The notes: generated from the sequence alone by a model not told the origin. A DNA stretch of 64,000 nucleotides from Nitrospirota bacterium (GCA_027623995.1 JAQBUF010000010.1:1-64000), one strand, 5' to 3'; counted from the stretch's first letter, positions 1,989 to 5,603 are shown. Program-made: numbers and translations.

Positions 1989-2158
1989 CCCGCATCCACC
2001 TTTCTTTGGCCATCAATCAGACTGTCTTCCGTTCCCGGAGCACCCATCGTGATATGTCCGTGCGTCATGGGTTTCTCTACAGTTATCGGCGGAATCGAAC
2101 ACGACTTAAGCATAATGAACACGGACGGCTAGTCGGCAGAATCCAAACTGAAGGGGAA

Positions 2159-2337
2159 TGTTGAAAAAAGCCGCCAGCGGCGTTCTCGCCCTTTTGCCGT
2201 GCTCACGTACTGGGAGTACGCTCCGCGCGTCAAAACGGCTGCGGCCTTGCTGGACGAACTTTTTTGAACAGTCCCTCTCACTGATGTCGGTTGCCGTCCT
2301 GAAGCCTCTATGGCCAATGAACAGGAAATATTCAACA
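2159..2337. repeat. Dispersed structured repeat, copy 1 (long hairpin, TGTTGAA ends)
   Basis: About 179 bp, matched by a second copy at 5271-5450. The outer ends are inverted (TGTTGAA at 2159, TTCAACA ending at 2337). The first 112 bp (2159-2270) form a long imperfect hairpin: TGTTGAAAAAAG at one end pairs with CTTTTTTGAACA at the other, with a perfect CGTACT-GGG-AGTACG tip. It lies in the intergenic space between miaB and the HDOD gene. A short reading frame through it (starting MLKKAASGVLALL) appears in both copies and is a by-product of the repeat. There is no transposase inside, so it resembles a MITE or another non-autonomous repeat. Confidence 0.85.
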
Positions 2338-2483
2338 GGCCCTGAAGGGTATTCGACTGATGAATCCACCTTTGATGATAAACAATAGTCTTTCAGGTTT
2401 TGCCATATTCGGAAGAACACTGAATCCTTCAGGGAGGGCACAAACCCAAGGAGGAATCTGAGGGAATAGGGGACGTATGGTCT

Positions 2484-3821
2484 TCAGTCTGGACAGACGA
2501 GAGACAATGGGGATGCGACACGCAGGCCAAAGAGCGTGGATGCTGATGCCTCGGCAACCGCCACAGGGACAAGATTGCCAGGCTGAGTGAACGAATCGGC
2601 CTTATTCCATACCACAGTCACATTACTTTCGGTATGCCCCATCCATTGATCCCGTGACTTTTTGGCATGGCCTTCGATGAGCACATCAACACTCTGCCCA
2701 ATCAGGCGGTGATTGAGTTTTGATGAAATGTCCTTTTGCAGATCGATGAGCCGTGCGACTCGCTCTGTCTTCACTTGGGCCGGAACATCATCCGCATACT
2801 TTCGACTGGCAATGGTATGCTTTCGCTCTGAATATTTAAAAATATAGGCGGCCTGAAACTCTAGCGCCTTCAGCAACTCATAAGTTTCGAGATACTCCGC
2901 ATCAGTTTCTGAACAAAACCCACAAATCACATCCGTACTCAGCGCGATATCACCCCGACGTCGAATGTCCTCCACTAAAGAGAGGAAGTCTTTCCGAGTA
3001 TAGGATCGGCCCATCAAATCAAGGATTCGATCGTTTCCAGCTTGCAGAGGCAAATGAATCTGGCGGCAAATGCGCGGGTGCTGAGCCACAGCCTCCAATA
3101 ATGAAGGCGGAAAATCTTTAGGGTGCGGCGAAGTAAATCGAACCCGTTCAATGCCAGGGATATCGGCAACGGCCGTTAGCAATCGTGCAAAATCCCAGTT
3201 CTCAGAGGAATAGGAATTCACATTCTGGCCAAGGAGTGTGATTTGTTTATACCCTCGAGACGCCAACGATTGGGCTTCTTCGAGAATGCCTTCGGGAGTT
3301 CGAGAGCGCTCCCGTCCACGCGTGTACGGCACCACACAAAAGGAACAAAAATTATCGCAGCCTCGCATGACCGCGATCCACGCATTCACTCCAGGGCCAC
3401 GATCCGGGAGAATATATTCATAGGTTTCATATTCCGAAAGATCAACGGCCAAACTTTTTTCCTGATGCTCAAGAGCGCGAGTCAGCAGCTCCGGCAATTG
3501 TCGATAGCCATCGGGACCCACCAGGACATCAATCACCGGATCAGATTCCATCAATTCTTTTTTGAGATTCTGCGCCATACACCCCAACACTCCCACCACC
3601 ACCTTGCGCTCTCGTTTCAGGACTCGGCATTCACCCAGGTGCCCATACACCTTGTTGTGCGCATTTTCTCTAATGGCGCACGTATTCATGAGCACCACAT
3701 CAGCTTGGGATTGATCTCCAGTAAACACGAATCCATTTTTCGTCAACAACGAACGCACGAGCTCAGTGTCATACTCATTCATTTGGCAACCAAACGTCTC
3801 AATAAAAACCTGGTAGGGCAT
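2484..3821 (-). CDS. miaB: tRNA-2-methylthio-N6-isopentenyladenosine synthase MiaB
   Basis: Radical-SAM methylthiotransferase (445 residues, normal family length) that adds the 2-methylthio group to N6-isopentenyl-A37 of tRNAs reading UNN codons. It has the MTTase N-terminal domain with cysteines in FGCQMN, NTCAIRENA and GCMAQ for the auxiliary [4Fe-4S] cluster. The radical-SAM motif CDNFCSFC lies near residue 155, and a TRAM RNA-binding domain occupies the last ~70 residues. It lies 26 bp downstream of mtaB on the same strand, so the two related enzymes are probably co-transcribed. The N-terminus starting MPYQVFIETFGCQMN separates it from MtaB. Confidence 0.96.
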   Translation of the reverse strand: MPYQVFIETFGCQMNEYDTELVRSLLTKNGFVFTGDQSQADVVLMNTCAIRENAHNKVYGHLGECRVLKRERKVVVGVLGCMAQNLKKELMESDPVIDVLVGPDGYRQLPELLTRALEHQEKSLAVDLSEYETYEYILPDRGPGVNAWIAVMRGCDNFCSFCVVPYTRGRERSRTPEGILEEAQSLASRGYKQITLLGQNVNSYSSENWDFARLLTAVADIPGIERVRFTSPHPKDFPPSLLEAVAQHPRICRQIHLPLQAGNDRILDLMGRSYTRKDFLSLVEDIRRRGDIALSTDVICGFCSETDAEYLETYELLKALEFQAAYIFKYSERKHTIASRKYADDVPAQVKTERVARLIDLQKDISSKLNHRLIGQSVDVLIEGHAKKSRDQWMGHTESNVTVVWNKADSFTQPGNLVPVAVAEASASTLFGLRVASPLSLVCPD

Positions 3822-3847
3822 GGGCTAGGAATCCTTAAAAAGTAAGC

Positions 3848-5230
3848 TTAACAAAGCAAAGGTAAGACATGCGCATCCATGTGTTGTTCATGAACCATTG
3901 GAAGAATCTTCTTCCTGCCACTACAGTCTTCGGCGGAAACAATTTGCCCAAGCGCGGCTTCTCCAATGGTACCAATGAGTTGAACCGGTTGAATCTCATT
4001 GGCCGCGATGGTCGGGCCGGGGACCCGTACGCGAATGAAATTATCAGTCAGCCCACTCCACCACCCAGCAGGCTCGGTAGATTCGAAGAGCACAGACACA
4101 CGTTGATCTATAAAACGTCGATAAAACTCTGCTCGCTTAAGCCGTGAAAGTTCCGAAAGATTTTTGCTGCGTGCTTTAATCGACTTGCCTGGCACCCGAT
4201 CTTCCATGTGAATGGCGGCAGTTCTAAGACGAGCTGAATAACTAAACACATGAAAGTAGGCCAAGGGCAAAGCACTCACCACCGCTCGGGTATTAGCAAA
4301 TTGTTGTTCACTCTCTCCCGGAAACCCGACCATGAGATCGGTCCCAATACACACATCTGGAACTGTTCGTGCCGCATGTTCGACCCAATCACAGTATTCT
4401 TTCACGGTGTATCGTCGATTCATCGACTTGAGAATATCATCGTCGCCACTTTGCAATGGCACATGTAAAAATCTGCACAATTTGGATGAGGATGCCATAT
4501 AGTCCAGCAAGGCTTCAGGAATCGTCGTAGGCTCGATCGAAGAAATTCGAATTCGAGCCAAACCCGAGATCGCTTCCAGCCGTTGAATTAACTCAATGAG
4601 TCCCAGCCCCTCAGTCGCAAACTGCCCAATATTGACTCCCGTCAACACAATTTCTTTGTGGCCTCGTTCCACAAGTTGTTCAGCTTCTCGAACCGCATCG
4701 TCTAGGTGCCGACTTCTCTCCCTCCCTCGTGCAAAAGGGATAAGGCAAAATGAACACATGAAGTTACAGCCATCCTGAATTTTGAGATTCGCTCGAGTCG
4801 TTTCAAAGTCTCCCACACCCTCCTGCCCGAAATCAGCTCGGTCAATCGTTCCGGTATGCCACACCGTAGGACTTGAATGCTTTCCAGACAAATCTTCAGG
4901 ACGGACATAGTCCGCCAAATCCATTTTAAACTGATTGCCTAACACCAAATCCACCCCAGGTATCGTCTGTATCGCGTGCAATCCAGTCTGGGCATAACAC
5001 CCAGTCACCGCCACAAAAGCTTGAGGAGATTGACGCAAGGTACGCCGAATGGCCCGCCGACAATCCACCTCAGCACCCTCAGTCACCGAACAGGTGTTCA
5101 GCACCAGCAAGTCCGTCGGCTCCCCGAACTCCACACGCTGATACCCAATGGTTTTCAAGCGATCAACCAATACCGCGGTCTCCGATTGATTCAGGCGACA
5201 CCCAATTGTATGAAACGCAACTTTTTTCAT
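3848..5230 (-). CDS. mtaB: tRNA t6A37 methylthiotransferase MtaB
   Basis: Radical-SAM methylthiotransferase (460 residues) that converts t6A37 to ms2t6A37 in tRNAs reading ANN codons. Auxiliary-cluster cysteines lie in IGCRLNQ, NTCSVTEGA and GCYAQ. The SAM-cluster motif is CNFMCSFC near residue 155, and a C-terminal TRAM-like region follows. The N-terminus (KKVAFHTIGCRLNQSE) and the RGRERSRHLDD stretch are typical of MtaB rather than MiaB or RimO. It is the first gene of a probable mtaB-miaB pair. A copy of the structured repeat ends only about 40 bp upstream of its start codon and must therefore overlap or adjoin its promoter region. Confidence 0.95.
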   Translation of the reverse strand: MKKVAFHTIGCRLNQSETAVLVDRLKTIGYQRVEFGEPTDLLVLNTCSVTEGAEVDCRRAIRRTLRQSPQAFVAVTGCYAQTGLHAIQTIPGVDLVLGNQFKMDLADYVRPEDLSGKHSSPTVWHTGTIDRADFGQEGVGDFETTRANLKIQDGCNFMCSFCLIPFARGRERSRHLDDAVREAEQLVERGHKEIVLTGVNIGQFATEGLGLIELIQRLEAISGLARIRISSIEPTTIPEALLDYMASSSKLCRFLHVPLQSGDDDILKSMNRRYTVKEYCDWVEHAARTVPDVCIGTDLMVGFPGESEQQFANTRAVVSALPLAYFHVFSYSARLRTAAIHMEDRVPGKSIKARSKNLSELSRLKRAEFYRRFIDQRVSVLFESTEPAGWWSGLTDNFIRVRVPGPTIAANEIQPVQLIGTIGEAALGQIVSAEDCSGRKKILPMVHEQHMDAHVLPLLC

Positions 5231-5270
5231 GCCCTATCCACAAGAAAGAGTAAGGGAGTCATTATGGAAA

Positions 5271-5450
5271 TGTTGAAAAAAGCCGCCAGCGGTGTTCTCG
5301 CCCTTCTCCCGTGCTCACGTACTGATAGTACGCTCCGCGCGTGAGAAGAGCTGCGGCCTTGCTGGACGAACTTTTTTGAACATTCCCTCGCACTGATGTG
5401 GGGCGTCGTCTCTGACGCTTCTATGGGTTCCGAACCTGAATTACTCAACA
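5271..5450. repeat. Dispersed structured repeat, copy 2
   Basis: Second copy of the repeat at 2159-2337, in the same orientation. The hairpin core is 5271-5382, with ends TGTTGAAAAAAG and CTTTTTTGAACA and tip CGTACT-GAT-AGTACG. The right end reads CTCAACA, one mismatch from the inverted left end. Where the copies differ, both arms change together: copy 1 has CTTTTG facing CAAAAC, copy 2 has CTTCTC facing GAGAAG. The fold therefore seems to be conserved. It sits just upstream of mtaB. Confidence 0.85.
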
Positions 5451-5603
5451 GGCCCATTATAGGAGAGCCATACAGAAGAGGACAACCGTGAAGCACTGAG
5501 GAGTCAGCCACAAATTGCCGAGAAGAACCCTATAAGGTAAAATAAGGCCAACGATCTAACAGACGACTGACTCGTAACTTCACCTTTGGAAGAGGAAACA
5601 GTT

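Follow-up and report, generated by a model that had tools for sequence, protein, structure and literature searches.

The window analyzed here, 64,000 nucleotides of a Nitrospirota bacterium genome (GCA_027623995.1, JAQBUF010000010.1:1-64000), contains two hairpin-forming direct repeats that flank the miaB-mtaB pair, raising the question of whether the repeats serve these genes or lie beside them for reasons of their own. An earlier note on this DNA had read them as elements selected for their fold and tied to miaB-mtaB, a reading that proved half right. The copies do lie in the same orientation at the places described and are 85% identical, but each extends about 5 bp further on either side than had been noted, and the hairpin, taken to be 112 bp, is 122 nt long. 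The parts of the two copies are as follows (window coordinates):

2149-2153, no strand: target-site duplication TGAAG to the left of copy 1, an exact 5-bp repeat
2154-2342, plus strand: element copy 1, GGGAATGTTGAA...TTCAACAGGCCC, 189 bp, both ends set by the family alignment
2154-2275, plus strand: hairpin of copy 1, 122 nt, based on covariation and on model R1 (140 bits, E 5.5e-31, the copy being within the training set)
2198-2229, plus strand: conserved tip of copy 1, CGTGCTCACGTACT-GGG-AGTACGCTCCGCGCG, near invariant over 51 hairpins and found again in other phyla
2276-2342, plus strand: variable tail of copy 1 with a third inverted-end copy at its end, based on alignment and end match
2343-2347, no strand: target-site duplication TGAAG to the right of copy 1, an exact 5-bp repeat
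5261-5265, no strand: target-site duplication ATTAT to the left of copy 2, present as a single ATTAT at the empty site of the congeneric genome G002
5266-5455, plus strand: element copy 2, 190 bp, with the mtaB start codon 35 bp downstream; set by alignment, absent in G002 and G001
5266-5387, plus strand: hairpin of copy 2, 122 nt, model R1 133.9 bits, E 1.6e-29 (copy within the training set)
5310-5341, plus strand: conserved tip of copy 2, loop GAT, based on the 51-hairpin alignment and covariation
5388-5455, plus strand: tail of copy 2 with the right inverted end, based on alignment
5456-5460, no strand: target-site duplication ATTAT to the right of copy 2, which with the next A forms the TATAAT of a minus-strand promoter-like site

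The MFE z-scores were -2.3 for copy 1 plus flanks and -4.8 for copy 2.

Anatomy, family size and insertion of the element

The element has the ends GGGnnTGTTGAA...TTCAACAnnCCC, which an alignment of 40 copies set as GGGAATGTTGAAAAAA and AATATTCAACAGGCCC. It consists of the 122-nt hairpin on the left, whose foot, GGGnn...nnCCC, is made up of two inverted ends, and a variable tail of 67 nt ending in a third copy of the end. In 55 of 61 copies the first 12 bp agree with the last 12 at 9-10 positions. The length is 189-190 bp in the window and ~180-350 bp elsewhere, with many copies brought to 220-350 bp by extra palindromic modules of ~30-40 bp at fixed sites in the arms.

The earlier note had proposed a search of this genome and its relatives for the hairpin core, with a scarcity of copies to count against its reading; the copies are many. 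By blastn there are 59 matches to the repeat in the whole genome, and the family is present in 35 of 41 relatives and 14 of 16 genera of the order Nitrospirales. The end motif GGGnnTGTTGAAWAW occurs at 289 sites (149 + 140) with at most one mismatch, as against eight (2 + 6) for the reversed pattern, and these ~290 motifs would imply up to ~140 elements in the genome. A covariance model, R1, identified 100 hairpins here, 105 in the complete relative G020, 11 in the congener G001 and none in eight control genomes.

Several loci depart from the typical form. In three of them (L109, G000:C36:29500-30800; L244, G000:C38:7000-7708; L238, G000:C82:1-1500) the element ends are kept around a different interior (...GGTATTCTTTGTGGACATGAAGCG...), indicating that the ends can carry other sequence. 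The copies at L244 and L238 are seemingly interrupted by a putative group II intron; one has a candidate 5' start, GTGCGCCTGTGAAGGCG, immediately behind a small hairpin, the other a 3'-end-like sequence. At L225 (G000:C89:900-5900) the element starts at locus position 127 and passes after ~60 bp into a HigBA-like pair on the other strand (an HTH frame of 101 aa and a RelE-like one of 125 aa); within 4.8 kb no right end was found, and this may be a cargo-bearing or a broken copy. The genome is a draft of 110 contigs, several of which stop within the element. At two contig ends (G000:C5:63157-63346 and G000:C12:57301-57447) the same element occurs with an identical left flank, so this copy is either part of a larger duplication or the product of overlapping assembly.

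Evidence that the element inserts comes from its flanks. Among the 61 copies with both ends, 35 are bordered by an exact 5-bp target duplication, where shuffled partners give 1.0, and no comparable excess was found for duplications of other lengths (2-10 bp). At the same place upstream of mtaB, the congeneric genome G002 reads GAGAAAGCTATTATAGAAAACC, with a single ATTAT and no element, and in G001, also congeneric, the interval at the copy 2 site is ~197 bp shorter. The G002 site is the natural empty site of copy 2, from which it follows that copy 2 arrived, or failed to become fixed, within the genus. The two copies in the window are independent insertions, each with its own target duplication, and their placement around miaB-mtaB is incidental.

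Fold, covariation and a proposed transcript role

The earlier note had pointed out that the hairpin arms change together between the two copies, and this was borne out in an alignment (A1) of 51 distinct Nitrospirales hairpins from several genera, onto which a 46-pair structure from the consensus fold was placed. Standard pairs fill 94.4% of pair cells (39-48% in slid registers), a percentage that is favored by drawing the structure from the same sequences. Changes on both sides of a pair are largely independent of that advantage; they occur at 16 of the 46 pairs, in 98 cells, as compared with 28.6 cells in shuffled alignments and 1-27 in slid registers, and none of 500 shuffles reached the observed count. 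The foot illustrates this, columns 4/121 being A-T, T-A or G-C and columns 5/120 A-T, C-G or G-C. Arm changes without compensation had been named as the outcome that would speak against the fold, and compensation is what the 51 hairpins display. The pairing together with the 16 double-changed pairs leads us to conclude that the fold is maintained.

Coordinated arm changes could also arise through template-switch repair of quasi-palindromes. Were the covariation mutational in this way, the element would be an ordinary MITE and its hairpin a by-product of inverted ends; many bacterial MITEs are hairpin formers, the arms do vary far more than the tip, and palindrome correction would keep arms paired without any function. 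Such correction would, however, erase mismatches, and a G.G pair at alignment columns 10/115 and a TCA/CTCC loop beside the tip are near fixed in the 51 hairpins. These conserved stem mismatches argue against template switching alone, as does the retention of the tip sequence in other phyla, and we think it unlikely that mutation of this kind explains the covariation.

Selection on the fold is likely, and of the earlier proposal that selection acts on the fold rather than on a protein, this part stands. The short shared frame, MLKKAASGV, is 13-107 aa long depending on the copy and is broken by indels; we rejected a protein reading because neither its length nor its frame is conserved. The selection may or may not act on RNA. 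G.T mismatches occur at 17 pairs and A.C mismatches at 18, and this near equality gives no clear sign that a one-strand RNA is the selected form, with the caveat that neutral decay after insertion blurs the count.

The same evidence bears on whether the repeats are domesticated regulatory RNA hairpins (terminators, mRNA stabilizers or small RNAs) kept for their effects on neighboring transcripts. The covarying stem is consistent with this, as is the position of copy 2 between a conserved promoter-like site and mtaB. Copy 2 was inserted in ATTATA, the reverse complement of TATAAT, at a minus-strand promoter-like site, TTGTCC-18-TATAAT (window 5456-5485), that is also readable in G002; if the site is used, the mtaB leader would now contain the element. 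On the other side, in addition to the similar mismatch counts, no Rfam family scored above the gathering threshold for the element, no terminator-like site overlaps either window copy, and copy 2 is missing in the two congeners. The copies are also without orientation or position bias: all 30 resolved contexts are intergenic, with 11 copies against the flanking genes, nine with them, seven between divergent and three between convergent genes (approximate figures, since genes were called with a custom program that the window had served to train). An intrinsic terminator, with a G+C-rich stem followed by a U run downstream of genes, was considered and rejected, there being neither a terminator-like site nor an orientation bias. 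We accordingly find it rather improbable that the copies are kept as regulatory RNA hairpins. The suggestion that the repeats have a role bound up with miaB-mtaB, or provide transcript ends, is not supported, given the independent insertions, the two congeners lacking copy 2, and the absence of terminator-like scores and of bias.

The hairpin tip in other bacteria

Outside the order, too, the tip, GCTCACGTAC-n-GTACGCTC, tops long hairpins: it recurs in rhizobia, Sphingobium, symbionts of the genus Rickettsia, a myxobacterium and some Bacillota. When genome contigs were scanned for CGTGCTCACGTACTN{1,8}GTACGCTC, most matches lay in Nitrospirales. Further matches came from Rickettsia endosymbionts of ants, a Mesorhizobium and three MAGs (Polyangiaceae, Clostridiales family XIII and alphaproteobacterial), and in each of these the tip caps a different long imperfect hairpin. 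Matches labelled 'Nitrospinota' and 'Bacteroidia' may be misbinned Nitrospirales; two contigs, BQIZ01000247 (L165, NPIRA06) and BQJD01000084 (L185, Marine bacterium B5-7), which agree in length (5058) and in the position of the motif but carry different organism names, are probably one contig binned twice. With up to two mismatches there are 55 and 65 tip sites in two Rickettsia symbionts (G041 and G042) and seven each in Mesorhizobium and the Clostridiales MAG, and none for the reversed pattern. The tip occurs in only 23 of 2.9 million viral contigs, on which ground we rejected a viral feature, and a plasmid collection searched with the window element gave no match.

It is conceivable that the shared tip reflects convergence or chance, short GTAC-rich palindromes being common and the repeats of other phyla unrelated. 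Only ~18 bases of the tip are specified, and at E 0.001 model R1 had no matches in three tip-bearing Bacillota genomes. The frequency of the tip argues otherwise. The pattern GCTCACGTACN{2,7}GTACGCTC was found in 11 of 299 Pseudomonadota genomes, with up to 46 sites in one, and in seven of 299 Bacillota genomes, with up to 14 sites (each count includes the genome chosen as centre); the reversed-pattern control gave two single hits in the Pseudomonadota and none in the Bacillota, that is, two in 598 genomes, and the sites of the positive genomes lie in long imperfect hairpins. Model R1, made from Nitrospirales only, had 12 whole-genome matches in the Rickettsia symbiont G041 and, in Pseudomonadota, 17 in G101, 20 in G127, four in G097 and three in G217. 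It also aligns over its full length with several hairpins of other bacteria, at E 7e-9 to 1e-5, in a partly circular comparison since the loci were preselected by the tip; the whole-length alignment with the G127 hairpin (E 7e-9, likewise tip-preselected) has the internal-loop motifs GCGGCGTT/GCCTTGC in common. Homology of the hairpins is supported for Pseudomonadota and may or may not extend to Bacillota, and chance resemblance of the tips seems improbable to us.

In Sphingobium, a homologous megaplasmid site carries the hairpin in TomMM7A and TomMM15 and is empty in TomTYG72, 73, 74 and 46. Comparison of the junctions, CCCCTTA[GGGCCGATC...GATCGGCCC]TAGTTT, with the empty site, CCCCTTAGCTT, reveals duplication of TA and not of 5 bp. 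The tip therefore cannot be explained simply as the site that a single transposase, cutting in a single geometry, recognizes, and it is conserved among elements whose modes of integration differ. That the hairpin rides on elements with a 5-bp or a TA duplication would make the hairpin itself the functional unit. We accordingly entertain, tentatively and as a reading that could well fail, a multi-phylum superfamily of mobile hairpins recognized in folded form by a putative factor. Its scope would take in the Nitrospirales MITEs, the palindromic repeats of Rickettsia, and the rhizobial, Sphingobium, myxobacterial and Bacillota repeats, and its possible hallmark would be an invariant tip GCTCACGTAC-n-GTACGCTCCGC with fixed internal loops and free, covarying arms.

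Proposed mobilization and relation to known repeats

For the Nitrospirales family itself, what is observed is insertion that duplicates 5 bp, one empty site, amplification, spread through the order, and a hairpin whose arms covary around a fixed tip. The explanation that we favor, and consider likely, is that this is a small, parasitic, non-autonomous element of the MITE class that is mobilized in trans via its ends and whose hairpin tip is recognized by a factor acting in trans. A putative transposase would read the ends GGGnnTGTTGAA and cut the target with a 5-bp stagger. The hairpin, whether extruded in single-stranded DNA or formed in the RNA of read-through transcripts, would be a cis-acting structure, and the factor recognizing its tip might be the mobilizing enzyme or a host protein. 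Recognition of the tip would explain why the arms drift yet stay paired while the tip and internal loops are fixed, even in relatives with another duplication length. The TA duplication in Sphingobium makes a single mobilizing enzyme for all of these elements unlikely, and tip recognition is something that we infer.

What counts against this explanation is that a transposase gene bearing the same ends did not turn up, whether at the element loci or by way of PF01609, Tn3 or Y1 genes. A scan of the element loci for ORFs enclosed by two ends at a spacing of 0.55-4 kb yielded no true case (one spurious case was without a true duplication), DDE_Tnp_1 (PF01609) genes had no matching ends, and the Tn3 transposase (PF01526) is absent from this genome and present in one of 14 genomes. 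Since several contigs of this draft break off within the element, an autonomous copy, being repeated, may have dropped out of the assembly.

The genome does have four Y1_Tnp genes, and the repeats, being palindromic, intergenic and of high copy number, recall REP-like elements moved by a RAYT tyrosine transposase; we consider that origin highly improbable, because the element is 189 bp long and makes 5-bp target duplications, none of the four Y1 genes is flanked by it, and Y1 matches are lacking in the hairpin-bearing genomes G001, G017, G127, G101 and G041. Membership of the REP/RAYT class, with its GTAG/CGTC foot, Y1 link and lack of target duplication, was rejected on the same grounds. REPs are also only 20-40 bp long with an unpaired foot tag, whereas the hairpin here is 122 nt with a conserved tip and internal loops.

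The element is closer to bacterial MITEs of the ERIC, RUP and Correia/NEMIS class, which are likewise short and non-coding, with inverted ends, a target duplication, many intergenic copies and no transposase of their own, some of them folding as hairpins in RNA. It differs from these in its ends GGGnnTGTTGAA with a 5-bp duplication, in having three end copies, the first two of which close the 122-nt hairpin, and in its insertable modules. ERIC resembles it in outline. TIMEs have GGG-starting ends and a 5-bp duplication, as this element does, but they have the 38-bp Tn3 inverted repeat, whereas the ends here share only ~12 bp; a Tn3-derived TIME was rejected for want of a long Tn3-type inverted repeat and of a Tn3 transposase in the genome.

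Rickettsia palindromic elements are also long imperfect palindromes, and the tip is common to repeats of Rickettsia symbionts that we liken to them by description. They insert in-frame in genes (PMC10969869), whereas the copies here are intergenic, and the arms differ. The palindromic REPs tagged with CGTC or GTAG span several phyla, Nitrospira being unmentioned; RPE-4 and RPE-6 of R. conorii belong to the CGTC-REPs, which have no known transposase (PMC3733652). Of the groups described so far, the CGTC-REPs and the Rickettsia palindromic elements come nearest. MITEs and palindromic repeats as such are already known; the shared tip is the part that could surprise, and a search of the open literature found neither a palindromic MITE family of Nitrospirales nor a report naming this tip.

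Much of the repeated DNA of this Nitrospirales lineage is explained by the MITE family, whose copies provide markers of recent mobility. The palindromic repeats of Rickettsia and of other bacteria have so far been described lineage by lineage, several groups (e.g., the CGTC-REPs, PMC3733652) being without a known transposase. The occurrence of one tip in several phyla, on elements whose target duplications differ, suggests a relationship among these repeats and a recognition step, acting on folded DNA or RNA, that is still to be discovered. The Sphingobium plasmids, with sites at which the hairpin is present or absent, offer culturable material, and the recurrence of a nearly unchanged tip in unrelated bacteria suggests recognition by a putative factor.
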